Source of the DNA: a virus
Strand: one strand, 5' to 3'
IMG/VR virus record: IMGVR_UViG_3300030117_005941
Span: 16,956 to 73,554 of that record
DNA: 56,599 nt
Under the pieces are notes generated by a model. That model was not told where the DNA came from and made no database searches. It worked only from the letters and a program-made list of their open reading frames with translations. The translations under genes were made by a program, and so were the position numbers. Shown one piece after another: positions 1,884-53,936 of the stretch; position 1 is the first letter of the stretch; each line of letters opens with the position of its first letter.

Positions 1884-2036
1884 TTACTGCTTTTGCTTTT
1901 GGTCTTTTGATTTAAAAGGACAATGTCTACAATTACTATTACAACAATATCCTCTTTTTAGATGATATGCTACGGTCATAACCATATTACCGTCTTTATC
2001 TTTGTAAAAGTATGGATTAAATTCACTTGACTTCAC
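1884..2036 (-). CDS. DUF5522-type small cysteine protein
   Basis: A 50-residue protein that starts at GTG inside the last codons of the ribonucleotide reductase gene (14-base overlap), so translation is probably coupled. The visible signature is NPYFYKDKDGN, then YHLKRGYCCNSNCRHCPF. This matches my knowledge of the DUF5522 family, short proteins common in Bacteroidota with the pattern YHLKRGYCC...CRHCP. The CC-x3-C-x2-C cluster suggests metal binding; no function is established. An in-frame ATG lies further in, but starting there would remove the conserved aromatic N-terminal segment, which favours the GTG. It is a useful host marker. Confidence 0.7.
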   Translation of the reverse strand: MKSSEFNPYFYKDKDGNMVMTVAYHLKRGYCCNSNCRHCPFKSKDQKQKQ

Positions 2037-3888
2037 AAGCACCACCAGCACATGCTAGCTCTCCCATTAGATTAGTTTCATCATCATCTTCCACAACTTT
2101 AGAAAGATCTATATCCATTAATGATGTAACCATTGTATTAAACTTATGTTCATCTATATCTTCAAATGGAGCTTGAGTGTAGGTACCACCATCATAAGGT
2201 AGCACAGCCAGCCCATTATAATGATCTCTATTATTCCACATCCATTCACCCGCATCATTCCAGTCTTCATCTTTTAAACTAATAGTAGCAGAAACATTAT
2301 GACTGTTAGATCCAGTTCTATGACCAGGCTTTACCCATTCAGTTGCAACTTTCTTTACTCTTTCTAATAATTGAAAAGCAGATTCAGTTCTTAGTATAGA
2401 CCCTCCTGGTGCTTTTTGAGGTATACTTATTACAGCAGTATCATGACCACGGAACACACAGTCTTCTACAAGATCAGGATGATTTTCAGCAAGATATCCA
2501 TATATAGATTCATTTTTACCTACACGTATTCTTCTAACATAATAGTCATTATGCCAAGCATGAATACCAGAACTAGTACCTAATGTTAATGATGTTGTAC
2601 CAGCAGGTTTTACTGTTGTTGTCCTAGCAGCTTTTTTAATTCCAATAATTTTAGCTACACGTGTATTTTCTTTATTAACAATTTTTGCTGCAGCATTCAT
2701 GTCTATGTAATCAGCAAGAACTTTTTTAGATCCTATACCAGTCATGGATACACCAATCAATGCATCTTTTTCTGTAGTCTCTTGCCATACTGGTCTGAGA
2801 TAGTGGAAGTTAGTATATCCTGCTTGAAGTGTTCCTATAAATGCAGCAGCCTTAACTCTTGCTTCTAAGTCTTCTTGGGACTGAATATTGCTTACATTAA
2901 CTTCACACAAGTTACAAAATTGAAAAGGACGTAAAGCAATCTCACAACAAGGGTTTGTACCCCAATCTTTATCATTGTTAAAGTAAATACCTGGTTCACC
3001 AGCTTTACTTAACTCTACTCTCTTCCATAGATCCATAAAGAAAGACTTAGTTATCTTATGTCTCATAAGCACTGCAGAGTTATTAGCTCTACCGCGTTGT
3101 GGATTTAGTTCCCACCAAGCTCCAGATTTACAAGCAATCATCTCACTATCATCAGCACTAAACAGACTGATAAGAGCAGCACGTCTAATACCACCGGCTA
3201 ATACAGCATCTGCTATATGGCAAACTATATCATGCACTTCTAATGTAGATAATGCATCACCATCTTCTTTATTTTCTAATATACCTGTTACTTTTAATAT
3301 GCATTCTTTTAATGGTTGTGGACCAGGGGCTTTACCTCCTGATGTAACTAGTCTAGCACCTTTAGGTCTAATGTCTGAATAGTCAAATACTATACGTGAA
3401 CTTTTACCATTTAAGTAAGACTTCATTAGAATCTTAACTGCATCTGCCCAACCTTCAATAGAGTCACCAATCAAATAACGTCTAGTTCTTTTTTTGTATG
3501 GTTTATTTATTAATGGTAGTTTATCAACATGATGTTGTTGAACTGAATAACCTACACCTGTTCCACCAAGTAACAAAAACATAGTTTCACTAAATGAGTC
3601 TACATGATCTATAGGAAGGTATGCGCAATTATATATTCTATTAGGACTTATCTCTATTGGCTTGCCAGCAAACTGCATGGATCTCATAGAAGGTAAGATC
3701 TTTTTATCATAAACATAAGTATATGCATCTAATATATCACTTTTTAATTTAGGATATTTTTTAATATGCATATGCATGTTTCTTGTTACTAGCTCTTCCC
3801 AAGTTTCTCTACGTTTTAACTCCGGTAAGTATTTTGCGTATTTCATATAGACAGTGATATCACTAAGGATCTTGTTATTCAATTCCAT
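2023..3888 (-). CDS. nrdJ: Adenosylcobalamin-dependent (class II) ribonucleoside-triphosphate reductase
   Basis: Reduces ribonucleotides to deoxyribonucleotides for phage DNA synthesis, using adenosylcobalamin to generate a thiyl radical. At 621 residues it is shorter than the monomeric Lactobacillus enzyme (739), but all key positions are readable. C88 (RIYNCAY) and C325 (FQFCNLCE) form the active-site redox pair. N312, C314 and E316 in TNPCCEI correspond to the catalytic Asn, thiyl Cys and Glu. The C-terminal CAGGAC matches the C-x4-C tail that re-reduces the active site. The usual Gly after the catalytic Cys is a Cys here (C315). The ATG at 3888 follows an A/T-rich leader. It lies downstream of a small membrane-protein gene and overlaps the DUF5522 gene, so the three look like one operon transcribed opposite to the structural genes. 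Class II enzymes need neither oxygen nor a separate radical subunit. Confidence 0.95.
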   Translation of the reverse strand: MELNNKILSDITVYMKYAKYLPELKRRETWEELVTRNMHMHIKKYPKLKSDILDAYTYVYDKKILPSMRSMQFAGKPIEISPNRIYNCAYLPIDHVDSFSETMFLLLGGTGVGYSVQQHHVDKLPLINKPYKKRTRRYLIGDSIEGWADAVKILMKSYLNGKSSRIVFDYSDIRPKGARLVTSGGKAPGPQPLKECILKVTGILENKEDGDALSTLEVHDIVCHIADAVLAGGIRRAALISLFSADDSEMIACKSGAWWELNPQRGRANNSAVLMRHKITKSFFMDLWKRVELSKAGEPGIYFNNDKDWGTNPCCEIALRPFQFCNLCEVNVSNIQSQEDLEARVKAAAFIGTLQAGYTNFHYLRPVWQETTEKDALIGVSMTGIGSKKVLADYIDMNAAAKIVNKENTRVAKIIGIKKAARTTTVKPAGTTSLTLGTSSGIHAWHNDYYVRRIRVGKNESIYGYLAENHPDLVEDCVFRGHDTAVISIPQKAPGGSILRTESAFQLLERVKKVATEWVKPGHRTGSNSHNVSATISLKDEDWNDAGEWMWNNRDHYNGLAVLPYDGGTYTQAPFEDIDEHKFNTMVTSLMDIDLSKVVEDDDETNLMGELACAGGACEVK

Positions 3889-6190: not shown

Positions 6191-6556
6191 ATGGCAACTT
6201 TAACCGCGCAAACTAAACTAACATGTTCAGGAATAAATTCTGATGATATGGCACTAGATGTTACAATGACTCCAACTGTAGCAGCAGGAGGTATTATTAG
6301 TAAAACTATTGATGTTAGATCAGGAGCAGCAGTAGAAATTTTGTATGAAACACATTATGATGCTGGTGCAATAATTTATTTAAAGAATACAAGCAGCAGT
6401 GAAACTGCATATATAGAAACAAATGGTGGACATGCTTCTATAGTTTTAAGTGCAGGTCAATGGGCAGTATTTCCTTGGAATGCTGTTTCACATGATTTAA
6501 AAGCATATTCTTCTGCTAGTTTAGTATTAGAGATAGGAGTATTTTCCGCAACATAA
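6191..6556 (+). CDS. Beta-rich virion-type paralogue 2
   Basis: A 121-residue member of the tandem family. It begins MATLTAQTKLTCSGINSD and carries the shared IIYLKNTSSSETAYIE strand, then LSAGQWAVFPWNA, and ends LEIGVFSAT. It is closest to the next gene (6582), which has the same GQWAxFPW and FSAT ends, so this pair arose by a recent tandem duplication. An AATAAATAAA stretch sits in the gap before it. Likely a decoration or fibre subunit. Confidence 0.65.
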   Translation: MATLTAQTKLTCSGINSDDMALDVTMTPTVAAGGIISKTIDVRSGAAVEILYETHYDAGAIIYLKNTSSSETAYIETNGGHASIVLSAGQWAVFPWNAVSHDLKAYSSASLVLEIGVFSAT

Positions 6557-6581: not shown

Positions 6582-6953
6582 ATGGCATCAACATTAACAG
6601 CACAAGTAAAAATAGATATTTCAGGAATAACTTCTGATCCTATTTCTGTAGATAAAACTTTAACTGCAACTAACATAGTAGCTGGAGGTATAAAAAGTAG
6701 ATCAATTAATGATACTTCAGCAGCAGGAGAAACAGTAATAAGTTCTGGTGATTATAATGCAGGAACCATGGTTTATCTAAGAAATGCACATGCTTCAGAA
6801 ACAATTTTTATAGAGTTATCAGCTAGTACAACAACTATACCTTTAGCAGCAGGTCAATGGGCTTTTTTCCCTTGGCAAGCAGGTGTTAGTTTAAAAGCGC
6901 ATGCAGCAGCTAATACACCTATATTAGAGTGGGGAATATTTTCAGCAACATAG
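6582..6953 (+). CDS. Beta-rich virion-type paralogue 3
   Basis: A 123-residue sister of the 6191 gene. It shares the N-terminal TLTAQVKIDISGITSD, the central MVYLRNAHASETIFIE, the LAAGQWAFFPWQAG segment and the C-terminal WGIFSAT. It ends in TAG, which is uncommon here, 3 bases before the next gene. The role is inferred to be structural, as for its paralogues. Confidence 0.65.
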   Translation: MASTLTAQVKIDISGITSDPISVDKTLTATNIVAGGIKSRSINDTSAAGETVISSGDYNAGTMVYLRNAHASETIFIELSASTTTIPLAAGQWAFFPWQAGVSLKAHAAANTPILEWGIFSAT

Positions 6954-7720: not shown

Positions 7721-8086
7721 ATGGCAACTTTAACAAGTATATTACAACTTTCAACAAGTGGTGTGGCTAAAGATGGTGTGAATATAACCTATTCTAACAT
7801 AGCTAATGTTAAAAATCCTGCTATTCAAACTAGTACAGCAACTGTTGCAACAGGTGGTGATACAGATATTGTTACTCCTGCTTCTGATGCAGCAGCATAT
7901 GTATATGTATGCAATAAAGATGCAACTAATTTTGTAAAGGTAAAATTAGGAGGTAATGAATTGCTAAGAGTGGGTCCAGGAGAGGCTAACTTATTTTGTG
8001 TACACAGCAATAATGCATGTGCACTAAGAGCTGACACTGCTGAATGCAAAGTTGAATTCGGATACTGGACATTTGACAAGTATTAA
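7721..8086 (+). CDS. Beta-rich virion-type paralogue 4
   Basis: A 121-residue family member and the close sister of the next gene (8106). The two share MxTLTSxxQLSTSG, KIANVKNPA-type and VGPGExxxFCVH segments, and the WTxxKY ending. It keeps the family's central strand (YVYVCNKDATNFVKV). It contains three Cys (VCNKD, FCVH, NACAL), unlike copies 1 and 3. Its leader contains an AAATAAATAAATAAATAATA run (7697-7719). Inferred structural role. Confidence 0.65.
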   Translation: MATLTSILQLSTSGVAKDGVNITYSNIANVKNPAIQTSTATVATGGDTDIVTPASDAAAYVYVCNKDATNFVKVKLGGNELLRVGPGEANLFCVHSNNACALRADTAECKVEFGYWTFDKY

Positions 8087-8105: not shown

Positions 8106-8477
8106 ATGGGAACTTTAACAAGTGTAATTCAATTATCAACTTCTGGTATAGCAACGGATAGAGCAAGATTTAGTACATCTAAAATAGCTAACGTAAAAAA
8201 TCCTGCTACACAAACAGGAGCTTTATCTATATCAACTATTACTACAATAGCTACAGCACCTTCTGGAGCTACAGCTAGTGATGGTTTATATATGTATATA
8301 CATAACACAGATGCAACTAACTTTTTAGTTGTAACATTTGGTTCTACTAGCACCTTAAAGATTGGACCTGGAGAAACTAGTTTCTTCTGTGTTCATGACG
8401 GTATACTCGTAAAAGGTACTGCTAGTGCTGGAACTGTGAAGATAGAGTATGGTACTTGGACTTTAAGCAAATACTAA
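8106..8477 (+). CDS. Beta-rich virion-type paralogue 5
   Basis: A 123-residue sister of the 7721 gene. It reads MGTLTSVIQLSTSGIATD, then SKIANVKNPATQTG, MYIHNTDATNFLVV and LKIGPGETSFFCVHDG, and ends YGTWTLSKY. Only 4 bases separate its stop from the start of the large secreted repeat protein, so that protein is part of the phage transcription unit and not a detached insertion. Confidence 0.65.
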   Translation: MGTLTSVIQLSTSGIATDRARFSTSKIANVKNPATQTGALSISTITTIATAPSGATASDGLYMYIHNTDATNFLVVTFGSTSTLKIGPGETSFFCVHDGILVKGTASAGTVKIEYGTWTLSKY

Positions 8478-8481
8478 AAAC

Positions 8482-11400
8482 ATGAATAAATTTATACAAA
8501 TATTAATTATATTTGTATTAGCCCCTTCTCTCTTGTTTTCACAAGAGTCTTGGATACATATACAATTGCAAACAGATCAGTATCCTAGTGAAACATCATG
8601 GGAGTTGTATGATATTAGTGGTGCTGCAATAGCTGTAAATGAACCGTTCTTATTACCAGAATTTTTACATGATACTGTAATAAGTATACCAGCAGGTGAA
8701 TACATTATATCATTAAATGATACTTATGGTGATGGATTAGCTGGATCTTTTTGGGGTGGCAATAACGGATGGTTTTCAATAAGCAACGCTTGTCAAGATA
8801 GTTTAATGTATGTAGAGGGTGCTTTTTACGAAGATTCACTACTAACAACAGAACCTAGTGGACCAATATCTTTAGTAGATACTTTAACAATAGCACCTTG
8901 TGCTCCCCCTTTACAAGGTTGTACAGATGAATTAGCAGAAAACTTTAATGAAGATGCCTTAATTAATGATGGTAGTTGTACATATGTTTACGGATGTATA
9001 AATGAGTTTGCGTTTAATTATAATCCACTTGCAGCAGATATACCAACAGGTATTATAACACCAGGTTCAACATGCAACTTGGTATCCTTTACTAATACTC
9101 ACTTTGGAGTTGACCCCGAATTTTATTTACAATATCAAGATATTCTACAAATTGGTGCAAGAATATATGTTGGTGATAATGGACAGCAATGGTTTATAGA
9201 TGCTGTGGCTTTTGATGGTGGAGGTTGTAATTCACCTACAACATTAATCTATGTAGTATCAACACAAGCAGAAGCAGATGGAAACCCTAATACAAATACT
9301 CCAGGTGTAAATGTAAATGCTGTAGTAGGAGAAACATGGCAGGTAGATCCTTGTATTTTTATTTATGGATGTACAGATCCAAATGCACTAAACTATAATG
9401 AAGAAGCAGGTATTGATGATGGATCTTGTATTAACATACCAGGTTGTACAGACCCAGAAGCAGCTAGTTATAACCCTGCAGCAACTACAGACGATGGTTC
9501 ATGTAATGGAGGAGATATAACATGTACACCAGGTAAAACTTTAGTTACAGTTGAAATAATGGTAGATCAGTATGGTTGTGAAACTAGTTGGATAATATAT
9601 GATCAGTATGGTGATGGAACACCTTTAGCAGAAGTAAATGATAACACAACGTATTGTGGTGTGCCAGTAGGTACTACAGTAGAATATCAAACTTGTATTG
9701 ATGACAATACTAACATAATGTTTTGGTTACAAGACTCATATGGAGATGGTCTTGGTGGAGCTCAATGGGGTGGTATAGATGGTACTTGGGCGGTATATAC
9801 AGAATGTGGTGATACAATATCAGAAGGTATAGGTGATTTTGGAGAGCTTATAATTGATGTTGGTCAAGTAACACCATGTGCACCAGAGACTGTAGAAGGA
9901 TGTACAAACAATGAGTATTTAGAGTTTAACCCTTATGCTAATGAAGATGACGGATCATGTGAAACAGAAAGAATATTTGGTTGTATAAATCCTGATGCTT
10001 TTAATTTTAACCCTGATGCAAATACACAACTATCAAACCCTAATTGTACAAATACATTAAGATTGACAGATTGGGCTGATAATGGTTGGGCAGGTTCATT
10101 TTTAGTAGTTACACAAGGTGATCAGTGGTGGGGACCTTTTACATTACAAAGTGATCAGACAGTTTTTGAAACTGAAATTAATTTTAATACCAGTGAAATG
10201 GTTAAAGCTTATTTTTATTCTTTTGGTCAATCTCAACAAACAACAGAACAATGCAGCTTTGAAATAATTAATCCTATAGGGGATATTATATTAGAAGGTG
10301 GAACTAACCCTTACACAAATCCAATACTCTCTTATAACCAGTATAACTTTCTATATCAAGGTCAAGCTCTGTGTGGTAATAACTGCATTCCTAAAATTTA
10401 TGGTTGTTTAGATTTAGAAGCGGTTAACTTTGACCCAATAGCAAATACAAGCAGTAATGACTGTTATTACAATCCTGGTTGTACTGATGCAGCTTATATT
10501 GAATATTATAATTATATAGAACAAAATGCAATAGAAGCAGATTTTGATAATGGAACATGTGAAGTATATGCTATATTTGGTTGTATAGATGAAACAGCGT
10601 ATAATTATAATGAACTAGCAACAGTTAATCAAGTGGCTGTTGAAGATGAAACAGATCCTTGTATACCAACCATTTTAGGTTGTACAGACCCATTAGCATT
10701 TAACTATGATCAAGAAGCAAATACTCTAGAACCAGGATCATGTGAGCCTGTTATTAATGGTTGTACAGACTCTGCTGCGTTTAACTATGATGAAGATGCT
10801 AACACAGATAATGACTCTTGTATAGAAATAGTATACGGTTGCACAGATGATGAAGCATTTAACTATTATCCAGATGCAAATGTAGATGATGATTCTTGTG
10901 AACCGGTAATTGAAGGTTGTACACAGTCAAATCAATTTAATTACAACGAGCTAGCTAACACAGATGATGGTTCTTGTTATCCTTTTGTATATGGTTGTTT
11001 AAATCCAAACTCTTATACATATAATGATTATGATAATGATGGTGTTGGTAATCCTATAACAGGAATAAATGGTGTAGATGTTAATACAAATAATAATTTA
11101 TGTGAACCTTTTATTTATGGTTGTTTAGATGAAACAGCATTTAACTACAATTCAGAAGCTAACACAGCAGATGAAAATAATCCATGTGAACCATTTATAT
11201 ATGGTTGTATGGATCCAACTCAATTCAATTATGATGTTAACGTAAATACTGACGATGGTTCTTGTATAGAATTTGCATATGGTTGTACAGACCCAGAAGC
11301 ATTTAACTATGATGAAACAGCAAATACAAATGTTGGTTGTATATCATTTGTTTATGGTTGTACAAATCCAGACGCCTTTAATTATAACCCACAAGCTAAT

Positions 11401-12348
11401 ACAGAAGATAATAGTTGTGAAGCTGTAGTTATTGGATGTACAGATTCTACAGCAAACAATTATGATGAGAATGCTAATACTAATAATGGTTGTATATATC
11501 CAGTATATGGTTGTACTGATGAGGAAGCATTTAATTATAACTCTAATGCTAACACAGATGATGGTTCATGTATACCTTTAATTTATGGGTGTACAGATAA
11601 TACAATGTTTAATTATAATTCAGAAGCAAATACTGAAAATGGTAGTTGTATAGAATTTATATATGGTTGTATGGATTCAACAGCGTTTAATTATGATCCA
11701 ACAGCTAACACAGATAATAGTTCATGTATCCCCATAATTGAAGGTTGCACTGATCCAAGTGCATTTAATTATAATGCAGATGCAAATACAGAAGACTTTT
11801 CATGTATTGAAGTTGTTATAGGTTGTACAGATCCAGATGCAATAAATTATGACCCTTTAGCAAACACAGATTCAGGAGCTTGTATAGATGTATTAACAGG
11901 TTGTACTGATGTAAATGCATATAATTATAGTTTAACAGCTAATACAGATGACGGTTCATGTGTTTATGATGCAGGATGTAGTGGAGGACCAGGAGAACCA
12001 TATTGGTTACCTAATGAATGTTTTGCATGGGTAATATCAGTAGATGATGAATGTTGTAATGGTCAATGGGATTCATATTGTGTAGAATTATATAATTATT
12101 GTGATTTAGGTTGGCCTATTGATTTAATAGAATCTTCTTCTGAATTATTGATTTATCCTAATCCAGTAATTGATATATTAAATATAAATCAAGAAATTGA
12201 TGTAAAATTATATGATATGGTAGGAAATTTAGTAATTTCTAAAGAAAACATAACACAAATAGATATGACTAATTTACCAAGTGGTATTTACAATTTAAAT
12301 ATAAACCACAATAATAAAATAATAAATAATAAAATTATAAAACAATAA
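8482..12348 (+). CDS. Secreted Cys-repeat protein with type IX secretion (T9SS) sorting domain
   Basis: A 1288-residue exported protein. It has a signal peptide at residues 1-20 with a typical flavobacterial cut region (LLFSQES). Two copies of a beta domain follow, with pattern DxYxxETSW...DxYGDGL (about residues 21-130 and 350-475). About 25 repeats of the form GC-T-D-P-x-A-x-N-Y-(N/D)-x-x-A-N-T-D-D-G-S-C come next, continuous from about residue 733. A WxxYCVELYxYC segment leads to a C-terminal type A sorting domain at about 1220-1288 (LLIYPNPVIDILNI ... LYDMVGNLV ... MTNLPSGIYNLNI ... KIIKQ). Established knowledge: such tails send proteins through the Bacteroidota T9SS to the cell surface or medium. 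The acidic Asp/Asn turns suggest calcium binding. It is expressed 4 bases behind a phage structural gene. Host-derived acquisition is inferred. Confidence 0.92.
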   Translation: MNKFIQILIIFVLAPSLLFSQESWIHIQLQTDQYPSETSWELYDISGAAIAVNEPFLLPEFLHDTVISIPAGEYIISLNDTYGDGLAGSFWGGNNGWFSISNACQDSLMYVEGAFYEDSLLTTEPSGPISLVDTLTIAPCAPPLQGCTDELAENFNEDALINDGSCTYVYGCINEFAFNYNPLAADIPTGIITPGSTCNLVSFTNTHFGVDPEFYLQYQDILQIGARIYVGDNGQQWFIDAVAFDGGGCNSPTTLIYVVSTQAEADGNPNTNTPGVNVNAVVGETWQVDPCIFIYGCTDPNALNYNEEAGIDDGSCINIPGCTDPEAASYNPAATTDDGSCNGGDITCTPGKTLVTVEIMVDQYGCETSWIIYDQYGDGTPLAEVNDNTTYCGVPVGTTVEYQTCIDDNTNIMFWLQDSYGDGLGGAQWGGIDGTWAVYTECGDTISEGIGDFGELIIDVGQVTPCAPETVEGCTNNEYLEFNPYANEDDGSCETERIFGCINPDAFNFNPDANTQLSNPNCTNTLRLTDWADNGWAGSFLVVTQGDQWWGPFTLQSDQTVFETEINFNTSEMVKAYFYSFGQSQQTTEQCSFEIINPIGDIILEGGTNPYTNPILSYNQYNFLYQGQALCGNNCIPKIYGCLDLEAVNFDPIANTSSNDCYYNPGCTDAAYIEYYNYIEQNAIEADFDNGTCEVYAIFGCIDETAYNYNELATVNQVAVEDETDPCIPTILGCTDPLAFNYDQEANTLEPGSCEPVINGCTDSAAFNYDEDANTDNDSCIEIVYGCTDDEAFNYYPDANVDDDSCEPVIEGCTQSNQFNYNELANTDDGSCYPFVYGCLNPNSYTYNDYDNDGVGNPITGINGVDVNTNNNLCEPFIYGCLDETAFNYNSEANTADENNPCEPFIYGCMDPTQFNYDVNVNTDDGSCIEFAYGCTDPEAFNYDETANTNVGCISFVYGCTNPDAFNYNPQANTEDNSCEAVVIGCTDSTANNYDENANTNNGCIYPVYGCTDEEAFNYNSNANTDDGSCIPLIYGCTDNTMFNYNSEANTENGSCIEFIYGCMDSTAFNYDPTANTDNSSCIPIIEGCTDPSAFNYNADANTEDFSCIEVVIGCTDPDAINYDPLANTDSGACIDVLTGCTDVNAYNYSLTANTDDGSCVYDAGCSGGPGEPYWLPNECFAWVISVDDECCNGQWDSYCVELYNYCDLGWPIDLIESSSELLIYPNPVIDILNINQEIDVKLYDMVGNLVISKENITQIDMTNLPSGIYNLNINHNNKIINNKIIKQ
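10678..11961 (+). repeat. Near-continuous array of 16 GCTD...DGSC protein repeats
   Basis: About 72-90 bases per unit, encoding 20-37 residue repeats, each bounded by a Cys near its start (GCTD) and a Cys at its end (DGSC). Linkers such as IEFIY, EPVIE and IPLIY separate the units. Codon choice differs between units, so this is a diverged protein-level array and not a recent DNA expansion. Related units occur in the genes at 42965, 49585 and 52322. Confidence 0.9.
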
Positions 12349-39415: not shown

Positions 39416-42400
39416 ATGGAAAAAATTGCAATTTTACCTGGAGGGTTTAAACCTCCCCATGCTGGTCATTACAATATGGCTAAATGGTTAGCTAATAATA
39501 CTGACGCAGATACAATAGTAGTTAAAATAGGATCAGGAGTAAGAGACGGAATTACAAGAGAAATATCCCTTAAATTATGGAATTTGTATAGAACTTCAGA
39601 TCCTGATGATACTAGTATTTCAATTTTACCTTCAGAATCTCCTTCTCCCGTAAGAGATGTTTACGATTTTATAGAACAAGAAGCTCCTGAAGGATCTACT
39701 GTTTATTTAGGAATGGGAGAAAAAGATATAGATGATCAAAGATTTAAAAATATAGGAAAATTTGCGGATCCTAAAAATATAAAATTTGAAACTGTATTAG
39801 TACCTCCACAAGCAGGAGGAGTTTCAGGTACTGAAATGAGGAGTTTTATAAAAAATAATGATAAAAAAAGCTTTCAAAAATATTTACCTGACCATTTAAC
39901 ATCTGATCAAGAAGAAGAAGCATGGGATATAGTAACTTCTATAAATGAAGATTTATATGACCCAAATGATCATTATAGAGATTTTGCAAAAACAAATGAT
40001 CCTAATCCTAAAAAACCAATATCACCTTCTTACAAATACCATAGAGCAGGAGTGTATGGAAGAATGTATGAGCAACAAGGAGGAAAAACTTTAAGAGTAT
40101 ATGATTTTGATGATACTTTAGCTATTACTAGAGGGGCTAACATAAAAGTAAAACATGAAGATGGTACTATTGATACTTTAGATCCTGCTGAATTTGCTGT
40201 TTATCAAGAACAACCAGGAGATAAATTTGATTTTACTGAATTTGATAGTGTAATTAAAGAAGCTACCCCTATTCAACACATAGTAGACATGTTAAAAAAA
40301 GATGTCAATGATGCTAGTGTAGATAAAGTAACAATTTTAACAGCTCGTTTATTAGCTTATCCTGTTAAAAGATATTTAAGAGAAGAATTAGGATTAGATG
40401 TTTACGTTGTAGCTGTAGGATCTTCAGACCCCTTAGATAAAGCTACTTGGATAGAAGACCATATTCTTAAAGGGTATAATGATATAATGTTTATTGATGA
40501 TTCTGAACCAAATAGAAAAGCAGTAAGTAAATTAAAAGATATCCATTCTGATATAAAATTAGATGTTTTTCATCCTCATGAACTTAATGAAGAAATGTAT
40601 GGGATGATGACTAAGCGAGAAAAAGCTAGACATAAAAGAAAACTAAAAAAAATAAAAAAAGATCTTAAAAGACTTGATAAAAAAAATAGATATTATGAAG
40701 TACCTAAAAGTTGGAGAGGATCACTTACAAGAAAATATAAAAGAAAAAGAAGAAGAAAAAGAAGAAAAAGAAGAAAAATGAATGAAAATGCTACTGCCTC
40801 AATAAAAGGTCAATTTATACCTTTAGAGGTAATGGATACTCCTGAATTACAAGTACAAGGAATGATGGGAAGAGATAAATTAGAAGGGGGTATGGTTTTT
40901 CCTTATGATGGGATAGATAAAAGAACTTTTCATACCCAAAATTGTAAAATTCCTTTAGATATAATTTTTATAGCAGATAATGAAGTTACTAAAATATTTC
41001 ATGATTGCCCTCCTTGTCAAGAAAAACAATGTCCTAAATATTCAGGAAGAGCAGATAATGTTTTAGAATTGCCTGGAGGTTATTGTGAAGAAAATAATAT
41101 AAATGTAGGAGATCAAATAGGACTTAATACTTATAATTTACCTAAACCTTTATCTGAACAAAAAGAATATAGACCTTTTAAAGATAAACTTATACAAAGA
41201 TATGTAAAAGCTTGTAATTGTAAAGTTTTAGATAAATTTGGAAATTGCCCTAGAGACTTTTTTCCTTATTGGCTTAATTGTACTATTGATGGAGATACTC
41301 CTAAAGTAGGAGATACTTTCATTTATCCTATAAATAATCATAAAGTAAAAGTACATAAAGTACAAATGGGTTTTGATGCTCCGGTTGTCGTAACAGATGT
41401 AGAAAGTACTAATTGTGGTGTAGGACCTAGAGAAAGAAAACTTACTAAAAAAGAAAATATAGACCCTAAATCACAAGCTAAACATAAAGGTAAATCTGCT
41501 CCTTATGGTTCTGCTTATGAACCTGTTAATGAAGCCGATCCTAAAAAAGGAACAGGTAAAAAACCTAAAGGATCAGGAAGAAGATTATATACAGACGAAA
41601 ATCCTAAAGATACAGTTAAAGTAAAATTTTCAACAAGACAAGATATAGTAGACACTTTAAATAAAAAATCTTTTAAAAGCAAACCACATAAACGTCAATC
41701 TCAAATTATAAATTTAATTCATCAAAGGGTAAGAGCTGCTTTAAGTAGAACAAAAGATCCACAAAAGAAAAAAAGTTTAAAATCAGCTTTTGAATATATT
41801 AAAAAACGTAAAGAAGCTTCTAAGAAAAAAACACAACGAATGAAAAAAGAAAATGTGTTTACTAAAGGATGGTGGAAAGATACCTTAAATGAAATATTGT
41901 TAAAAGAGGGAGGAGCAGCAGGACATATGGCACATCCTTTTAATTTACCAGATGTTAATTCAGGTAGTGATTTAAAGGATATATTTAATAAATCAGCAGA
42001 ATCTCTTCAAAATAATCCAGGTTCAGTAAAAATAGATGGAGTAAATAGTTCTATTCGTTTAATAGATTTAGATGGTGAAAAACAATTTGTGATGGATAGA
42101 GGTTCTAAAAAAGAACTTGATATAAAAGGTATTACTAAAGATGATTTATTAGATAGGTTTGGAGATGGACATGGAATGGTTAAAATAGGAGGAGAAGTAT
42201 TGGATATGTTTAATAATGCATTACCTTCTATAAAAAATGATTTAGAAAAATTAGGAGTTTATGATGATCCTAATATATTATTTAACATGGAATATGTTAG
42301 TGGAAAAACTAATGTACAAGATTATGGTTCTAATTTTATAGCAATACATGGTTTAAATAAAATAGAAAGTAAAGAAGTAGAGGGTAAAAGAGGACCTTTA

Positions 42401-42961
42401 ATTAAAAGAGTATCTTCTGAAGTGTCTTATGATAAGTCCGCTTTACAATCACTTTTAGATAATTTAGCACCAACAGCTAAAGAACAAGGATTTGAAGTGT
42501 ATGGTTCTGTACCTACAGAAATGAGTAAAAAACCTAATTTTTCATCAGCACTTTCTCAAAATTATACAATAGTGTCTAATGAAGGAGAAAAAACACAAAC
42601 ATTAGATCAATGGTTAAATGAATTAAATAACATTCCTGAAGAAGATTTTATATTTATGAATGTAGACAACTCTAAAAAGAAAGTTGGGGCTGTCTCTAAA
42701 TTAGTATATACTACACTCCTTAAAGGAGATAACATAGATGAGTTGTTTGAATCTGAAGAAGATAAACAAAAAGCTATTGAAGGTTTTACAACTTATCTTG
42801 CAACTGAAAAATTAGGTGATGAAGTACTTAAAGTATTAAATTCACCTATGGGTTCAGTTGATAACCATGAAGGAGTAGTAATAAGAGATGAAAATATAGC
42901 AAATGTACCATTTAAAATTACAGGTAAATTTATTTTAGGTGGGATGGCCTCAGATTTTTAA
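39416..42961 (+). CDS. Four-domain fusion: nucleotidyltransferase, HAD phosphatase, DUF192, RNA-ligase-like
   Basis: An 1181-residue protein. Residues 1-170 are a HxGH nucleotidyltransferase (FKPPHAGHYN, H15/H18; VSGTEMR at 136-142). Residues 222-390 are a HAD phosphatase (D230-F-D232-D-T234, TILTAR near 306, K342, D361-D362). A basic linker at 400-455 is nearly all Arg/Lys near its end. Residues 464-570 match DUF192 (GMMGRDKLEGGMVFPYD ... IPLDIIFIADNE ... LELPGGYCEE). A Cys-containing section and a basic linker follow. Residues 830-1181 look like a nucleic-acid ligase (K872-I-D-G875, FNMEYVSG, HEGVVIR at 1151, FKITGKF). The set resembles end-healing plus end-sealing for RNA or DNA repair. 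Sequences such as LKEGG and LSEQK at domain borders could be protease sites. Confidence 0.85.
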   Translation: MEKIAILPGGFKPPHAGHYNMAKWLANNTDADTIVVKIGSGVRDGITREISLKLWNLYRTSDPDDTSISILPSESPSPVRDVYDFIEQEAPEGSTVYLGMGEKDIDDQRFKNIGKFADPKNIKFETVLVPPQAGGVSGTEMRSFIKNNDKKSFQKYLPDHLTSDQEEEAWDIVTSINEDLYDPNDHYRDFAKTNDPNPKKPISPSYKYHRAGVYGRMYEQQGGKTLRVYDFDDTLAITRGANIKVKHEDGTIDTLDPAEFAVYQEQPGDKFDFTEFDSVIKEATPIQHIVDMLKKDVNDASVDKVTILTARLLAYPVKRYLREELGLDVYVVAVGSSDPLDKATWIEDHILKGYNDIMFIDDSEPNRKAVSKLKDIHSDIKLDVFHPHELNEEMYGMMTKREKARHKRKLKKIKKDLKRLDKKNRYYEVPKSWRGSLTRKYKRKRRRKRRKRRKMNENATASIKGQFIPLEVMDTPELQVQGMMGRDKLEGGMVFPYDGIDKRTFHTQNCKIPLDIIFIADNEVTKIFHDCPPCQEKQCPKYSGRADNVLELPGGYCEENNINVGDQIGLNTYNLPKPLSEQKEYRPFKDKLIQRYVKACNCKVLDKFGNCPRDFFPYWLNCTIDGDTPKVGDTFIYPINNHKVKVHKVQMGFDAPVVVTDVESTNCGVGPRERKLTKKENIDPKSQAKHKGKSAPYGSAYEPVNEADPKKGTGKKPKGSGRRLYTDENPKDTVKVKFSTRQDIVDTLNKKSFKSKPHKRQSQIINLIHQRVRAALSRTKDPQKKKSLKSAFEYIKKRKEASKKKTQRMKKENVFTKGWWKDTLNEILLKEGGAAGHMAHPFNLPDVNSGSDLKDIFNKSAESLQNNPGSVKIDGVNSSIRLIDLDGEKQFVMDRGSKKELDIKGITKDDLLDRFGDGHGMVKIGGEVLDMFNNALPSIKNDLEKLGVYDDPNILFNMEYVSGKTNVQDYGSNFIAIHGLNKIESKEVEGKRGPLIKRVSSEVSYDKSALQSLLDNLAPTAKEQGFEVYGSVPTEMSKKPNFSSALSQNYTIVSNEGEKTQTLDQWLNELNNIPEEDFIFMNVDNSKKKVGAVSKLVYTTLLKGDNIDELFESEEDKQKAIEGFTTYLATEKLGDEVLKVLNSPMGSVDNHEGVVIRDENIANVPFKITGKFILGGMASDF

Positions 42962-42964
42962 AAT

Positions 42965-45900
42965 ATGAAAAAAACAATTTTACGTAGAATTAGACAAAAA
43001 GCACATAAGTTACTAAAAGAACAAAAAATATTTGATCAAGAATATTTTAGTAATATATTAAAACCACCAACAAGTCCTTTTGACTTAGTATCAAAAATAC
43101 CAAAACCTGATAAAGATCAACCATATCCTTTTGGAAATGGAATAGCAGTCCAATGTAAAAATCAACAACCTGCCTTTGAATTATTTTATGTAGTTTGTCA
43201 AGATGGTGGAGATCTTGGACCTCAATGTGAATGTGAACAATATGAAGTAACTGCTGATTGGATTTGTTGTGATGGTGTTGACAGTTTTACAAATCCTGGA
43301 TTTGTCCCTTATCCAGGTCAATCATATGCAGGTGATGATAGTCTTTATTGTATGGCAGCACCTGGTACTCCAAATACTTTTGAAAATTATAAAGAAGCTC
43401 TTTTACAAAATGCTTGGATAATAAATATTAATTTTAGTAATTGGATAGCAGATGGTTTGCTTAATTTTCAAAGTGGACCTGGAGACATACCTGTTGTAGG
43501 AACAGGTTATTTATCTGAAGAATGTCCTGGATGTATGATAACACAACCTGCACCTCTTTCAGGTAATAATTTAGACATAGCAAATCAACAAAATATGCCT
43601 GATAATTTATCAATGGTACATGATGGTTCATGTGTGTTTGAATGGTGTAATACTCCAGAAGCAGACAATTATTTTTGTAATTCTGAATTAGCCTCAGAAG
43701 ATATAGCAGGAATAAATATTAGTTTTAGTGATTGGTGTGTTCCTAATGAAGATGGAATTTTAGTTCTTGATACTGCTATAGGAATTGTACAAGAAGGAGA
43801 ACTAACTGAATGTTATGTTGGTGGTTGTACAGATAATGGAACCTTAACTGCTGAAGTTTGGGCTGCAGAATATGCAGGAACAACTCAAACATTAGGAGAT
43901 GGTACTGGTGTATTACCAGATGAATATCCAGGAATGCCTGGAGCTGATAACTATGATCCTTTAGCTACTGTAGATGATGGTTCATGTATATATGATGGAG
44001 ATGAAGATGGAGTTTTCTCATTTGATGAAGTAGATGGCTGTACAGATCCTTCAGCTTTTAATTATAATGAAAATGCATCTGAAGATGATGGTACATGTGT
44101 ACCTATAATTTATGGTTGTACAGATTCATTAGCTTTTAACTTTGATGAAGAAGCTAATACTTTATGTGAAGATCCTCCAAATCAAATTAATATAGACCTA
44201 AATGGTAATGAAGAAGAATGTATAGAATGTATAGAAAATTTAGGTGGTTGTACAGATAATAGTGCAACTAACTATAACCCTGATGCTACTTTTGATGATG
44301 ATTCATGTTGTTATAATCCAGGTTGTACAGATGTAAATGCTTGTAATTATAGTGAAGCTGCTTGTTTTGATGATGGTTCTTGTGAATATGAATCATGTTT
44401 AGGTTGTACAATAATTGGATTTAATGGTGATGCTTCAGGTATAGGTGCTTATAGTGCTGCTAACAGTACAACATTAAGTGTACCTACTATAGATTATTGT
44501 GTTTATAGTGGTTGTTTAAATAGTGAACAAAATGAAGATGGGTCATATGTTTATGAAAATTATGTTTGTAATGGAGATTATGCTCAATTTTTGTGTACAT
44601 CTATTGATATTGATGGTGATGGAGCTCCAGATTTAGGGGTCCCAATGAGTCAAGAAAGTATAGATCAATATGGTCTTAGTATGGAACCTATAGGTATTTT
44701 TGTTGATAAAGGAACTTGTCAATTAGCTCCTGTATTAGGATGTACAAATCCTGATGCTGAAAATTTTAATCCTGATGCAACTGAAGATGATGGTTCATGT
44801 GAATTTATTCTAGGATGTATGGAAAATACAACAGCTGATTGGAGTTTAGAACCTAATGGATTTATAGTAACTAACTACCAACCAGATGCAACTCAAAATT
44901 TTGGCTGTAATTACGTTGTTTGTTTAGATGGAAATGCTGACAACTATGTATGTGATGCAGAAGATGGTGTACCATATCTATGTTTACAAAATACAGGAGA
45001 CCCTAATCAAGATTTAGATGATGACTTTATAGATAGTATAGGTGCTACTATTGAAGATTGTAATTATAATGATCAAAATATATTTGATGCTTCAGGTACA
45101 AATACTTGTTGTTTTAACATTATTCCAGGATGTATGCAAGGAGGAAATACTATTACTAACCCAGGAAATCTTACAGCTGACAATTATGATCCAAATGCTA
45201 ACGTAGAATGTGTTGATCCTCCAAACCAAGAAGATAATGACACAGGCCTTCCTTGTGAACCTTGTATATTTTCAGGATGCCCAGATCCAACAGCATGTAA
45301 TAGTATAGTAGGTACTAATATGTTTGGTCTGTTAGGTTATGAAGCATGGGTATATAATGATGATGGTTCATGTGAATATCCTGACACTTGTAATGATTGT
45401 GATGGAAATTACTTAACTGATGGATGTACTGATGAAGCAGCATGTAACTATGATCCAACAGCAGAATGTGGACCTAATGATCAACTTTGTGATTATGGTT
45501 GCTATGGTTGTACAGATGAAGCTGCTGCTAATTATGATCAACTAGCTACTATGGATGATGGTAGTTGTGAGTATGATGAAATGTGTTGGGATATAACAAT
45601 AACACAATGTAATGCAGCTTATTTATCATTTGCTTATCAAATTGCTGAACTAGAAGGAACTAGAGCTCCTGGTGGTCCTGATATGTGGACAAATGTAACA
45701 CTTAGATGTGTGTCTATAGGATACCCATCAGCTGCAACTGAAATTGGACCTAATGCTCCTGATGGAGAATTTGGAGGTAACCCACCTTTTGTAGATGGAA
45801 CAAGCCCTAATGGTTTAGGAGAATATGTTGTTTATGAAGGTTTTACAGCACAAATGGAAGGAGGACCTGGAGATGATTTAGGAATACCTTACGTACCAGC

Positions 45901-46657
45901 AGCTGTATGTCCTACTGATGCTTTACCTTTAGGTGCTAGTTTAATGAATTTTAATTGGACACAATTTGATCCTAATGATTATGGTAATATAGGTCAAGGT
46001 GGTTGTTGTGTACCTGCATTAGTACATGTAGATTCTGCAGGACATCCTAATGTTTATACAAATGCAGGTACATTGTCTGCAGGTACTAATTTTGGTGAAC
46101 TTGTTCCTAATACAACTGGTCTTTCACAAGCAACAGCTGTTTGTAATACTGAATCACCTTGTGCAATTGAGGTAGGTCCTAATAGTAACTATTATTGTAA
46201 TGGAAATCCAACAACTACTATAGATTTTGATGAGGATGATTTTGAGCCAGATGATGATATAATATATAACCCACCTATTGATGAAGGATTAGTAAATGAA
46301 CAAGCTGACATTCCAACAGGTCTTGGAGTATATGTTGATTATGGAGAACCTTATAGAGATGTACAATGGGGTCAGGATCCTGACGCAATTTGGAGAGTTA
46401 CTAGCGTATCAGAACCTTATTCATCTACAGGAGAAGTACTTTATTTACCTACATCAACTGATGATGAATGTTATGAATACTCAATGAATGGACCATTTAT
46501 GCAAGATGGTCAACCAGAGACAAGAGTTACAAGTACTAGTGATAAATTTACAAATCCAAATAGATCTGTAAATCGCCCTATTAATAGAGATGTTCAAAGA
46601 ACAATTAATGAAAGTAAAAGATTAAGAAAAGCTATTAAAAAAATATTTAAAAAATAA
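42965..46657 (+). CDS. Leader-bearing Cys-repeat protein (1230 residues)
   Basis: The N-terminus MKKTILRRIRQKAHKLLKEQ is a basic helix ending in L-K-E19-Q20, not a signal peptide. About 11 GCTD...DDGSC-type repeats follow from about residue 283 to 870, several expanded by inserts, with other Cys-rich stretches between them. A C-terminal region of about 300 residues is beta-rich (ITITQCNAAYLSFAYQIAEL ... RDVQWGQDPDAIWRVTS) and ends in a basic helix (RLRKAIKKIFKK). The repeats are the same family as in the T9SS protein at 8482, but there is no export signal or sorting tail here, so this version is meant for the virion or the cytoplasm. Two Cys per repeat suggest disulfide or metal stabilisation. 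Confidence 0.75.
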   Translation: MKKTILRRIRQKAHKLLKEQKIFDQEYFSNILKPPTSPFDLVSKIPKPDKDQPYPFGNGIAVQCKNQQPAFELFYVVCQDGGDLGPQCECEQYEVTADWICCDGVDSFTNPGFVPYPGQSYAGDDSLYCMAAPGTPNTFENYKEALLQNAWIININFSNWIADGLLNFQSGPGDIPVVGTGYLSEECPGCMITQPAPLSGNNLDIANQQNMPDNLSMVHDGSCVFEWCNTPEADNYFCNSELASEDIAGINISFSDWCVPNEDGILVLDTAIGIVQEGELTECYVGGCTDNGTLTAEVWAAEYAGTTQTLGDGTGVLPDEYPGMPGADNYDPLATVDDGSCIYDGDEDGVFSFDEVDGCTDPSAFNYNENASEDDGTCVPIIYGCTDSLAFNFDEEANTLCEDPPNQINIDLNGNEEECIECIENLGGCTDNSATNYNPDATFDDDSCCYNPGCTDVNACNYSEAACFDDGSCEYESCLGCTIIGFNGDASGIGAYSAANSTTLSVPTIDYCVYSGCLNSEQNEDGSYVYENYVCNGDYAQFLCTSIDIDGDGAPDLGVPMSQESIDQYGLSMEPIGIFVDKGTCQLAPVLGCTNPDAENFNPDATEDDGSCEFILGCMENTTADWSLEPNGFIVTNYQPDATQNFGCNYVVCLDGNADNYVCDAEDGVPYLCLQNTGDPNQDLDDDFIDSIGATIEDCNYNDQNIFDASGTNTCCFNIIPGCMQGGNTITNPGNLTADNYDPNANVECVDPPNQEDNDTGLPCEPCIFSGCPDPTACNSIVGTNMFGLLGYEAWVYNDDGSCEYPDTCNDCDGNYLTDGCTDEAACNYDPTAECGPNDQLCDYGCYGCTDEAAANYDQLATMDDGSCEYDEMCWDITITQCNAAYLSFAYQIAELEGTRAPGGPDMWTNVTLRCVSIGYPSAATEIGPNAPDGEFGGNPPFVDGTSPNGLGEYVVYEGFTAQMEGGPGDDLGIPYVPAAVCPTDALPLGASLMNFNWTQFDPNDYGNIGQGGCCVPALVHVDSAGHPNVYTNAGTLSAGTNFGELVPNTTGLSQATAVCNTESPCAIEVGPNSNYYCNGNPTTTIDFDEDDFEPDDDIIYNPPIDEGLVNEQADIPTGLGVYVDYGEPYRDVQWGQDPDAIWRVTSVSEPYSSTGEVLYLPTSTDDECYEYSMNGPFMQDGQPETRVTSTSDKFTNPNRSVNRPINRDVQRTINESKRLRKAIKKIFKK

Positions 46658-49208: not shown

Positions 49209-49585
49209 TGGAATATAAAAAAATATTTGGAGAATTATACAGTAATGCTAAAGAAAAATTTAGCATTAAACAACCTCCTAAACTTTTTTTAAAACAAGAC
49301 CCTAAAAATGCTAAAAATATATTAGGTCGTACAGCATACTATGATCCTGGAGAACAAACTATTGTTATATTTATAACAGATAGACATCCTAAAGATATAC
49401 TTAGATCTTTTTGTCATGAAATAATACATCATGTACAAAATGAAAGAGGTGATTTAGATGTAAGTGGTAATATGTCTCCAACATACGCTCAAGATGATAA
49501 ACATATGAGAGCAATGGAAAAAGAAGCATACTTAGAAGGAAACTTATTATTAAGAGATTATGAAGATAATAAAAAATATAAATAA
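49208..49585 (+). CDS. Small zincin-type metallopeptidase
   Basis: A 125-residue protein with the zinc motif H70-E-I-I-H74 in SFCHEIIHHVQNE and a downstream EKEAYLEGN segment, whose Glu (E106 or E110) could be the third ligand. The size and compact layout fit minimal zincins such as SprT- or ImmA/IrrE-like proteins, though I cannot place it in one. It has no signal peptide. It sits between two leader-bearing genes and overlaps both by one base. If it is a processing enzyme for the leader-bearing proteins, this would be a metallo-type alternative to the serine prohead protease; that is speculation. Confidence 0.75.
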   Translation: MEYKKIFGELYSNAKEKFSIKQPPKLFLKQDPKNAKNILGRTAYYDPGEQTIVIFITDRHPKDILRSFCHEIIHHVQNERGDLDVSGNMSPTYAQDDKHMRAMEKEAYLEGNLLLRDYEDNKKYK

Positions 49586-52320
49586 TGGGGAAGTTTAATT
49601 ATAAAAAATGGAAATCTAAGTATCTTCTAAAAGAACAAGCAAATACTGTAACTTATTTAGGTTGCTCAATGTGTTCTGCTGATAATCCCTATTATGCAGG
49701 TATGCAGGTGTGTACTCCTACTATTCCTTTTACATTAAATACAGATGATATTGTAAATAACGATGATGGTTTTACTGATCCTTTTGTTTTAAATTTTGAT
49801 GAATATCTACCAGGTTTTGAATCTATAGGATATTATCATGATTATATGTTTCAAAATGTCGATATAGTTGGAACCCCTAGTATAGGATGTATTGGAGGAG
49901 GTGATGGTTATAATCCTTATGGTTGTACAGATCCTAATGCATATAATTATGACCCAAATGCTGAAATTGATGATGGTTCATGTGATTCACAACTACCAGA
50001 CGAACCTTGTCCTCCACTTGAAATTATAGCACAACCAGATTTTATATCTGAAAATCCTACTACATTTAATTGGACAGGAGGATGTCCTAATTTACCTATA
50101 TATGCTACTTTTAGTGGTGCAGGAGCAGGACAAATAAATGTAAATTGGGAAGCAGGAGGACAATATATCCCAAACACAGGAGAATTTACATGGAATTTAC
50201 CCTGTGAGGAATTAACAGTAGGTATGGAATATTTTTACTACATAGCACAAGTAGTTGATGAAAATGTAGCATATGGTTCAGATAACATTTATAACATGAA
50301 TGGGGACGAACAAGGAGGTTATGGTTTTTATCTTTATTCTAATAATACTTTAGGAACAATATATATTGACCCAATTTTATGTCCTGATCAAAGTGGTTGT
50401 ACAGATGAAAATGCTGAAAATTATAACCCTGAAGCTACATATGATGATGGTTCATGTGAATATCGTCCTGTAGTTGGTTGTACTGACGAAACAGCTATAA
50501 ATTATGATGAAGGAGCTGTTGAAGATGATGGAAGTTGTGTATATCCTGAACCCGGATGTACAGATGAAAATGCAATCAATTATAATCCAGAAGCAGGTAT
50601 AGATGATGGATCTTGTGAATATGAAGGTTGTACTGATGAAAATGCAACTAATTATGATGAAACTGCTAATGTAGATGATGGTTCTTGTGTTTACCCTGTA
50701 CCTGGATGTACAGAAGAAGGTGCATGTAATTATGATGAAAATGCTGAAGTAAATGATGGAAGTTGTGAGTATGAATCATGTGCAGGTTGTATGGATAATT
50801 CAACATATTTTAATATAGAAACTCAACAAGAAGAATTAATAGCTGTTAATTATGACCCAGAAGCTACACTTCCAGGTCCTTGTCAAGGATGTGCTGATCA
50901 ACAATCAGATAATGCTAGTTTTATTAGTGTATCACAAAACTTTGCAGTTGGTTCAGGTAATGCTAATCAATTATATATTGATGTTCTTCCTGAAGGATGG
51001 AACACAACAGAACTATGGACAAATTTTGATTATGGTTGTCTTGATTGTTGTGTTTATTCAGGATGTTCAGATCCAGAAGCAGATAACTTTTGGCCAATGG
51101 CAGATCCTAATAATCAACCAACTACTTATGGAGCAACATGGACATTTATAGATGATGGTAGTTGTGAATATACAATACCAGGTTGTACAGACCCACAAGC
51201 AGGAAATTATAACCCAGATGCTACAGTAGATGATGGTACATGTAATTATTTTACTACGGGTGATCCTATAGAAGGTTGTACAGATGAAAGTGCTGACAAT
51301 TACAATGAAGAAGCTACTCAAGATGATGGTTCTTGTGAATATACAGTATTTACATGTGAAACCCTTACTAGTGGCACACCTGCTCAAATTATTTCTGAAG
51401 AATGTACTGAATCAATAAGTTCAGAACCTGCAGACGGAGAAACAACTTTTACTACTTTAGAATCTTGTCAAGATATTACAGGATGTGTAAAACCTGAAGA
51501 TGAATATGGGGGTTGTACAGATATTACTGCAACAAATTATGACTCAAATGCTAGTTATGATGATGGAAGTTGTGAATATCCTGAAGATCCTTGTACTCAA
51601 TTTAACACTTATGATGAAGAAGGTCAAGCACAAGCATGCTATATGACTTTTGAAGCACCTGTTTATGATCCATCAACAGGAACCGGTTTTGGTCAAGAAG
51701 TTATAGATTTCTTTAATGATCTTACTAATAATGGTGAATGTTGCCCTGAACAACCAGAACCAGAACCACGTTATACTTGTTTACCAACAGTAGGATCAGA
51801 CACTCAATATTGTGTAGAAGATCCTAATGGTGCTTTTACATCTGAATCAGAATGTAACGAATCATGTCCTGAAATTAATTGTGTTGTTCATCTTGATACT
51901 ATAATATGGCCAGGAACAGGATTTAATAATGCTGAAGAGTTTTGTGGTAGATGTGAAGTAGGAGGATATGAAGCAGCAGAAATGCAAATAAGTACTTCAA
52001 CAGGACAAATGGCTAATTGTGGTTGTTGTGAAGAAGTTGATAATACTAATTATGCAACAGATATGATTACAGGATGTGATGGATTTAATTCTATAGGTTT
52101 TCCTCAAAGTTTTAGAGATCTTATTTGTGAACAATGTGAAGATCCTAATTATGTGAATATACACTGTGAATGTTGTGAAGAAGGAGTTAATTATAATATA
52201 GATGCAGTTACAGATAATCCAGACCCAGGTACTCCATCTTTTCCAATTAGACCTACACCTGATCCGGAAATAAATAGAATGCAAAAACTAGCAGGACTAA
52301 AAAATAAAAAAAGAAAATAA
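49585..52320 (+). CDS. Leader-bearing Cys-repeat protein (911 residues)
   Basis: It opens MGKFNYKKWKSKYLLKEQ (L-K-E17-Q18). A Cys domain follows (TYLGCSMCSADNPYYAG ... GFESIGYYHDY) that is paralogous to the start of the 53933 product. About 11 GCTDENAxNYxPEAxxDDGSC-type repeats come next. A YTCLP...C-EDPNGAFTSESECNESC module precedes a CCEE-type module at about 815-875 (TDMITGCDGFNSIGFPQSFR ... CEQCEDPNYVNIHCECCEEG) that is nearly duplicated in the 52322 product. The end is RMQKLAGLKNKKRK. There is no signal peptide or T9SS tail. It probably forms a rigid disulfide- or metal-stabilised rod delivered with the virion; this is inferred. Confidence 0.75.
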   Translation: MGKFNYKKWKSKYLLKEQANTVTYLGCSMCSADNPYYAGMQVCTPTIPFTLNTDDIVNNDDGFTDPFVLNFDEYLPGFESIGYYHDYMFQNVDIVGTPSIGCIGGGDGYNPYGCTDPNAYNYDPNAEIDDGSCDSQLPDEPCPPLEIIAQPDFISENPTTFNWTGGCPNLPIYATFSGAGAGQINVNWEAGGQYIPNTGEFTWNLPCEELTVGMEYFYYIAQVVDENVAYGSDNIYNMNGDEQGGYGFYLYSNNTLGTIYIDPILCPDQSGCTDENAENYNPEATYDDGSCEYRPVVGCTDETAINYDEGAVEDDGSCVYPEPGCTDENAINYNPEAGIDDGSCEYEGCTDENATNYDETANVDDGSCVYPVPGCTEEGACNYDENAEVNDGSCEYESCAGCMDNSTYFNIETQQEELIAVNYDPEATLPGPCQGCADQQSDNASFISVSQNFAVGSGNANQLYIDVLPEGWNTTELWTNFDYGCLDCCVYSGCSDPEADNFWPMADPNNQPTTYGATWTFIDDGSCEYTIPGCTDPQAGNYNPDATVDDGTCNYFTTGDPIEGCTDESADNYNEEATQDDGSCEYTVFTCETLTSGTPAQIISEECTESISSEPADGETTFTTLESCQDITGCVKPEDEYGGCTDITATNYDSNASYDDGSCEYPEDPCTQFNTYDEEGQAQACYMTFEAPVYDPSTGTGFGQEVIDFFNDLTNNGECCPEQPEPEPRYTCLPTVGSDTQYCVEDPNGAFTSESECNESCPEINCVVHLDTIIWPGTGFNNAEEFCGRCEVGGYEAAEMQISTSTGQMANCGCCEEVDNTNYATDMITGCDGFNSIGFPQSFRDLICEQCEDPNYVNIHCECCEEGVNYNIDAVTDNPDPGTPSFPIRPTPDPEINRMQKLAGLKNKKRK

Positions 52321-53543: not shown

Positions 53544-53936
53544 ATGAAAGTGTTAAATAAGTTATTTTCCGGAGGAGCTAGTAAATTAGTTGAATCGGTA
53601 GGAGGTGTATTAGATAATGTAATAACCACAAAAGATGAAAAATTAGAAGCAAAAAGAAAATTAAAAGAACTAATATTAAGTCATGAAGCTGAAATGGAAC
53701 GTAATATAACTGACCGTTGGCAAGCTGATATGAATTCAGATAGTTGGTTAAGTAAAAATGTAAGACCAATGATTCTTATATTTCTTGTTGTCTCTACAGT
53801 TCTTATGATATTTATAGACGCAGGAACTATACAATTTACTGTTGAAGAAAAATGGACAGACCTGCTTCAGCTTGTATTAATTACAGTGATTGGTGCCTAT
53901 TTTGGTGGTAGATCATTAGAAAAAAGAAAAAAATGA
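53544..53936 (+). CDS. Holin of the 3TM (GTA holin) type
   Basis: A 130-residue membrane protein that would form the lysis lesion. The family pattern is RWQADMNSDSWLSKNVRPMI, then a membrane segment at about 74-92 and WTDLLQLVLITVIGAYFGGR (about 104-122), ending in SLEKRKK. A shorter hydrophobic helix near the N-terminus (LVESVGGVLDNVI) makes up the third segment. It is encoded within the Cys-rich cluster and overlaps the next gene by 4 bases (ATGA), far from the M15 peptidase at 19144. Timing of lysis would follow the late transcript of this cluster. Confidence 0.85.
   Translation: MKVLNKLFSGGASKLVESVGGVLDNVITTKDEKLEAKRKLKELILSHEAEMERNITDRWQADMNSDSWLSKNVRPMILIFLVVSTVLMIFIDAGTIQFTVEEKWTDLLQLVLITVIGAYFGGRSLEKRKK

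Follow-up and report, generated by a model that had tools for sequence, protein, structure and literature searches.

Gene content of the locus

The stretch of DNA analysed here, which we call the window (56,599 nucleotides), comprises bases 16956-73554 of a 73,554-base IMG/VR record. The features discussed below are collected in Table 1. The gene of interest is an intact open reading frame whose product, termed the cargo in this work, contains 69 cysteines and opens with a signal sequence that is clear by eye; its putative cleavage site lies between MNKFIQILIIFVLAPSLLFS and QES. The region between the signal sequence and the C-terminal sorting domain (CTD) is dominated by Cys repeats of the form GCTDxxAFNYNxxANTDDGSC. 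The N-terminal domains show an ETSW...YGDG pattern, and an element CFAWV...DECC...WDSYC, kept in 71 of 78 complete relatives, is found shortly before the CTD. Outside the CTD no domain was recognised with Pfam or PHROGs, and no enzyme or binding domain was seen.

The cargo gene starts 4 bases past the stop codon of the preceding gene. The original prediction had given this spacing correctly and had called the neighbour a phage-type structural gene, a label that is unproven, as the neighbour belongs to a group of paralogues that match only a PHROG of unknown function. These paralogues begin with MATLTAQTKL..., and similar proteins lie inside or beside the related gene clusters in many loci. The predicted unbroken run of plus-strand genes extends from position 3981 to the end of the window, with all likely genes on that strand and with baseplate, endolysin and holin genes among those encoded in the window. 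The only long minus-strand gene (2023-3888) encodes a B12-dependent ribonucleotide reductase whose nearest relative is that of Microcystis phage Mel-JY01 (67% identity).

Two further products of the window contain GCTD repeats, and their N-termini contain the motif LLKEQ, which we take to resemble a cleavage site of the prohead-protease type. A 3061-residue protein with GCTD repeats occurs in L039/L040, apparently a different type of phage. The gene at 39416-42961 encodes a protein of 1181 residues with weak N-terminal matches of cytidylyltransferase-like and polynucleotide-kinase-like character.

Table 1. Features of the window discussed in the text (TMCC and TRX are the cassette families described below).
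Feature	Position	Strand	Evidence or remark
Five paralogous proteins of ~120 aa	5766-6173, 6191-6556, 6582-6953, 7721-8086, 8106-8477	+	Interleaved with cassette; PHROG match of unknown function only
TMCC, one transmembrane segment and coiled coil, 94 aa	6957-7241	+	Sequence, recurrence in loci
TRX, signal peptide and thioredoxin fold without CxxC (NxxN), 121 aa	7238-7603	+	PF00085 25.1 bits, cut-off 23.5
T9SS-sorted Cys-repeat protein (cargo), 1288 aa	8482-12348	+	ORF translation, TIGR04183/PF18962 matches
N-terminal signal sequence, residues 1-20	8482-8541	+	By eye; same kind opens complete relatives
Region with ~16 GCTD-type Cys repeats, other domains interspersed	8917-12021	+	Pattern G-C-T-D ... 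F-N-Y ... D-D-G-S-C
Join or recombination point	11020-11063	.	L003/L006/L007 type on left, L005 contig on right
Type A T9SS C-terminal sorting domain, residues 1224-1288	12151-12345	+	TIGR04183 43.6 bits, PF18962 45.0 bits, motif alignment
GCTD-repeat phage protein lacking signal sequence and CTD	42965-46657	+	
Another GCTD-repeat phage protein, likewise lacking signal sequence and CTD	49585-52320	+	
Holin-like protein; relatives close to cassette in many loci	53544-53936	+	PF11351 27.3 bits, cut-off 24.8

A type A sorting domain

The C-terminus of the cargo aligns with the whole TIGR04183 profile of the type IX secretion system (T9SS), from position 1 to 72 of 72 (E 2e-11), and the scores for this profile and for PF18962 are both above the respective cut-offs of 23 and 27 bits. 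The type A motifs PNP, Y-x-x-x-G, G-x-Y and K-I-I-K are conserved in an alignment of ten phage CTDs. Over the full CTD length there is also a weak alignment with T9SS CTD chains of solved structures (8glk_D, E 0.044; 8glj_D, E 0.37). The complete type A domain that had been proposed from the letters of the sequence is thus borne out by both profiles. Type B is rejected, as TIGR04131 gave no match even at E<=1. By profile and motifs the cargo is a type A T9SS substrate, and its export is predicted on this basis.

The window is a hybrid of two phage types

Left of position 11063 the window follows the phage type of L003, L006 and L007, and nearly all 100-base bins of the first 2.5 kb of the cargo gene match L007 at 91-100% identity. 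The remainder, from 11020 onwards, matches the 55-kb contig that contains L005 at ~99.9% identity. The two matches share a 44-base overlap that is identical to both parental types and lies within the repeat array. The 114-kb L007 record and the window have in common only the cassette described below, a few genes to its left and the holin, and the GC content drops from ~0.31-0.34 to 0.26-0.27 at ~12 kb of the window. The barrel gene of the cassette is absent from the window contig, as would be expected of a hybrid; it is present in both parental types, following the cargo gene in L003 and L007 and preceding it in L005.

Either recombination between two phages or the assembly may have produced the join; these two origins are indistinguishable, since none of the other IMG/VR contigs shows the junction pattern. 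A host-phage chimera is rejected, as there is phage sequence on both sides. The original prediction had named an artificial host-phage join at 8.5 or 12.3 kb as one result that would refute its claim; this came true in part, in that a join does exist, within the gene, and it is one of phage with phage. The signals of the cargo had been read correctly; the in-gene join and the cassette of barrel, TMCC and TRX had been overlooked. The finding is independent of the join because the parental cargo genes (L003/L007 type and L005) are both intact and each has a signal sequence and a CTD. That the CTD exists only through contig joining or binning is therefore very improbable in spite of the unique junction and the GC fall, and it is refuted for the cargo family, only the hybrid form being doubtful.

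Distribution of the cargo family

With the 1288-residue protein as query, 38 loci were found in IMG/VR, and the relatives contain 33-79 cysteines per protein. A T9SS CTD above the cut-off was found in 31 of 36 related records, exactly one in each; in bacterial contigs 80-300 kb long, more than one would be common. Most of the larger records have a terminase and a portal gene: out of 27 records, 17 have the terminase phrog_6681 and 16 the portal phrog_6547. The terminase phrog_2 missed most records, which phrog_6681 recovered, and further terminases were found in G009 and G040. The phage gene product with signal sequence and type A CTD recurs in dozens of contigs, and the claim stands because it rests on this recurrence and not on the window contig.

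The GenBank relatives of the terminases come from Flavobacterium, Cellulophaga, Tenacibaculum and Maribacter phages. The myovirus part of the L005 type includes a relative of a baseplate wedge protein of Flavobacterium phage immuto, and two terminase-bearing jumbo contigs, L160 (297 kb) and L161 (232 kb), also carry the cassette. Judged by these marker genes, the cassette is present in several kinds of tailed phage. Among annotated phage records there was no barrel relative and just one weak, partial cargo match; three weak matches to TRX look like chance, and no cassette is annotated in Flavobacterium phage elemoE, which has a related terminase.

In the two jumbo contigs (L161:3581-11463 and L160:2575-13796) a TonB-dependent receptor gene and a lipoprotein-like gene adjoin the cassette; the receptor of L161 scores 84 bits for the Plug and 81 bits for the barrel domain. 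L160 also encodes a protein whose thioredoxin site, CGPC, is apparently of the active type. Another variation is seen in the cargos of L013, L098, L108, L142, L144 and L153, which fall below the CTD profile and have a common tail, ...(I/V/T)TD(L/V/I)LGR(P/S)...(Y/F/L)(I/L)Y(S/D/N)DG(S/T)..., possibly a further type of T9SS sorting tail.

A conserved cassette

The association of the cargo with its neighbours was tested independently by scanning IMG/VR with the barrel and keeping the best 80 of at least 529 relatives. Of 106 distinct barrel loci, 62 have at least 4.5 kb of flank on both sides. Among these 62, a cargo with CTD was found in 57 and a Cys-repeat protein with divergent CTD in 4 more, TRX in 59 and TMCC in 57. 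Cargo and barrel share a strand in every case (91 of 91); the cargo is at an offset of -1 gene in 49 of the 106 loci, and the gap is 20 bp or less in 47. The usual gene orders are cargo-barrel-TMCC-TRX and barrel-TMCC-TRX-cargo. Holin or DUF5675 genes are near the cassette in 32 of the 62 well-flanked loci, downstream in many. As far as gene neighbourhood can tell, these counts show that the cargo belongs to a conserved phage cassette with a predicted outer-membrane barrel, TMCC and TRX.

The barrel protein (~350 aa) has a signal peptide. An AlphaFold2 model from 8 sequences was too poor (pLDDT 51), so the model from 69 sequences was used, which gives an outer-membrane barrel with a signal helix (pLDDT 79, pTM 0.73). 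Our own count of the DSSP elements gives 12 strands, the seventh and eighth being separated by a long insertion. With a signal peptide and a transmembrane beta-barrel, the modelled protein is an outer-membrane beta-barrel. The closest solved folds are small porins (NanC, E 6e-6), and the viral protein A0A516LKJ4 adopts the same fold (E 5e-27). No match to NCBIfam, including TIGR03519, was found; the identities PorP/SprF and PorV were both rejected (hhalign probability 0.9% in each case), and the Foldseek similarity to a T9SS complex chain is weak (TM 0.31).

TMCC proteins are ~94 aa long, with a single transmembrane segment and a coiled coil. TRX proteins (~115 aa) have a signal peptide and a thioredoxin fold, with asparagine in place of the two active-site cysteines: NxxN stands in place of CxxC in 91 of 98 complete relatives, and the cis-proline loop VPT is retained. 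Despite the PF00085 match, TRX thus lacks the CxxC of a redox-active thioredoxin.

Origin and divergence of the components

The at least 529 viral relatives of the barrel in IMG/VR compare with 5 matches among 84,980 species genomes. These 5 are weakly placed MAG contigs, and one of them (G037 C28) has a phage terminase on the same contig. By profile, the barrel was found in 1 of 395 Bacteroidota genomes. By these counts it is a phage protein essentially absent from bacterial genomes. The Cys repeats of the cargo, on the other hand, have protein matches in 112 of the 148 Flavobacteriales genomes; a CTD was visible in 3 of the 9 bacterial repeat loci examined, within the stretch covered. The ectodomain therefore looks host-like and the rest of the cassette viral. 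The median normalised scores are 0.31 for the ectodomain and 0.33 for the CTD, as against 0.62 for the barrel and 0.68 for TMCC, so that the former two look to evolve much faster than the latter two.

Proposed role of the cassette

We suggest, giving the idea about an even chance, that the cargo is an exported member of a conserved phage cassette which remodels the envelope of the infected cell. Surface display would be the natural reading of the cargo. Our model follows the general T9SS pathway (PMC10202324). The host Sec system would export the cargo to the periplasm, where disulfides could form in it and where the redox-dead TRX may serve as a holdase. The host SprA/PorV translocon would recognise the CTD and move the cargo to the surface, where it would be anchored or released, and the barrel would sit beside it in the outer membrane. 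The fast-evolving, host-like repeat ectodomain could then change what outside agents see, the most plausible effect being that further phages are blocked from adsorbing to the infected cell (superinfection exclusion) or that progeny are kept from sticking. We infer superinfection exclusion from the anatomy of the cassette. A more elaborate and distinctly tentative version is a mobile surface-display system, with the barrel as dedicated anchor or shuttle and TRX as a chaperone for the disulfide-rich repeats, which gives the infected cell a variable, host-mimicking coat.

The barrel could also be the cargo's own shuttle or anchor, with the host SprA translocon exporting the CTD, in a dedicated pair like SprB-SprF and PG1035-PorP. 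There, too, a T9SS cargo is genetically linked to an outer-membrane barrel, and in F. johnsoniae cognate cargo and barrel genes are often adjacent and their products present in stoichiometric amounts (PMC12618676, PMC9143113). This precedent, with the co-encoding on one strand and the frequent direct adjacency seen here, makes the barrel an attractive partner; it stays a candidate since it is homologous neither to PorP/SprF nor to PorV (hhalign <1%) and resembles the T9SS chain weakly. Moreover, in the known pairs a type B cargo goes with a PorP/SprF barrel, whereas the cassette has a type A CTD, which host PorV should serve, and a barrel unrelated by profile. We regard such a pair as rather unlikely.

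The holin (PF11351) or DUF5675 neighbours suit a role in lysis as well as they suit envelope remodelling. TMCC, whose transmembrane and periplasmic coiled-coil layout resembles an inner-membrane spanin, could with a periplasmic protein and the barrel disrupt the outer membrane in a spanin-like manner, the surface protein aiding bursting or progeny spread. Yet TMCC has only ~94 residues, a conserved outer-membrane lipoprotein partner is lacking, and it would be odd for fast lysis to require that the T9SS export a disulfide-rich protein of more than 1000 residues; we regard this explanation as unlikely. Somewhat more doubtful is that the cargo is a surface protein taken over from the host which serves the infected cell in metabolism or adhesion, for example in nutrient capture or particle attachment, and is not directed against phages. 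The commonness of GCTD repeats in Flavobacteriales and the adjoining TonB-dependent receptor genes would suit it; the phage-specific barrel and the lack of a recognised enzyme or binding domain in the cargo speak against it.

Returning to envelope remodelling, many uncultured marine Bacteroidota phages appear to carry a cassette that would place a barrel in the outer membrane and a cargo at the surface via the host T9SS.

Relation to known systems and significance

The porin Lc of phage PA-2 and Llp of T5 are phage-encoded surface-exclusion proteins; we know of none of this kind that uses the T9SS. By description, the cassette may be likened to them as a phage-encoded envelope protein that alters the infected cell surface. 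A literature search linking phage-encoded porins to exclusion gave no relevant paper.

Phage T9SS cargo has been known since 2019/2020. De Jonge et al. (2019; PMC6949934) reported T9SS sorting domains near the head genes of crAss-like cluster 2 phages thought to infect Bacteroidota; these are tied to BACON repeats, with no link to a barrel, a thioredoxin-like protein or GCTD repeats. Bellas et al. (2020; PMC7468147) described Cryophage genes with type A sorting domains and suggested hijacking of the host T9SS and superinfection exclusion or competition. The original prediction, which knew of no described role for such a cargo, had missed both papers, and hijack and exclusion roles had already been suggested in the latter. 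Cryophage has three variable cargos (an endoglucanase, a GH39 and a PA14 protein), called a unique occurrence, with no conserved cassette described, whereas the cargos studied here form a single Cys-repeat family that is seen with fixed partners in dozens of phages. Neither the cassette nor the barrel family nor the thioredoxin-like protein with NxxN was found described in the papers searched, subscription papers and preprints lying outside the scope.

Superinfection exclusion and virocell surface change are nearly unexplored in marine Bacteroidota phages, and a widespread cassette that apparently borrows the T9SS would give a directly testable mechanism. The cassette would offer a phage-specific outer-membrane protein family without a curated family match, as well as probes for T9SS cargo selection and anchoring. 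Since the hosts of these phages degrade much marine polysaccharide via T9SS-exported enzymes, it may also touch carbon cycling.
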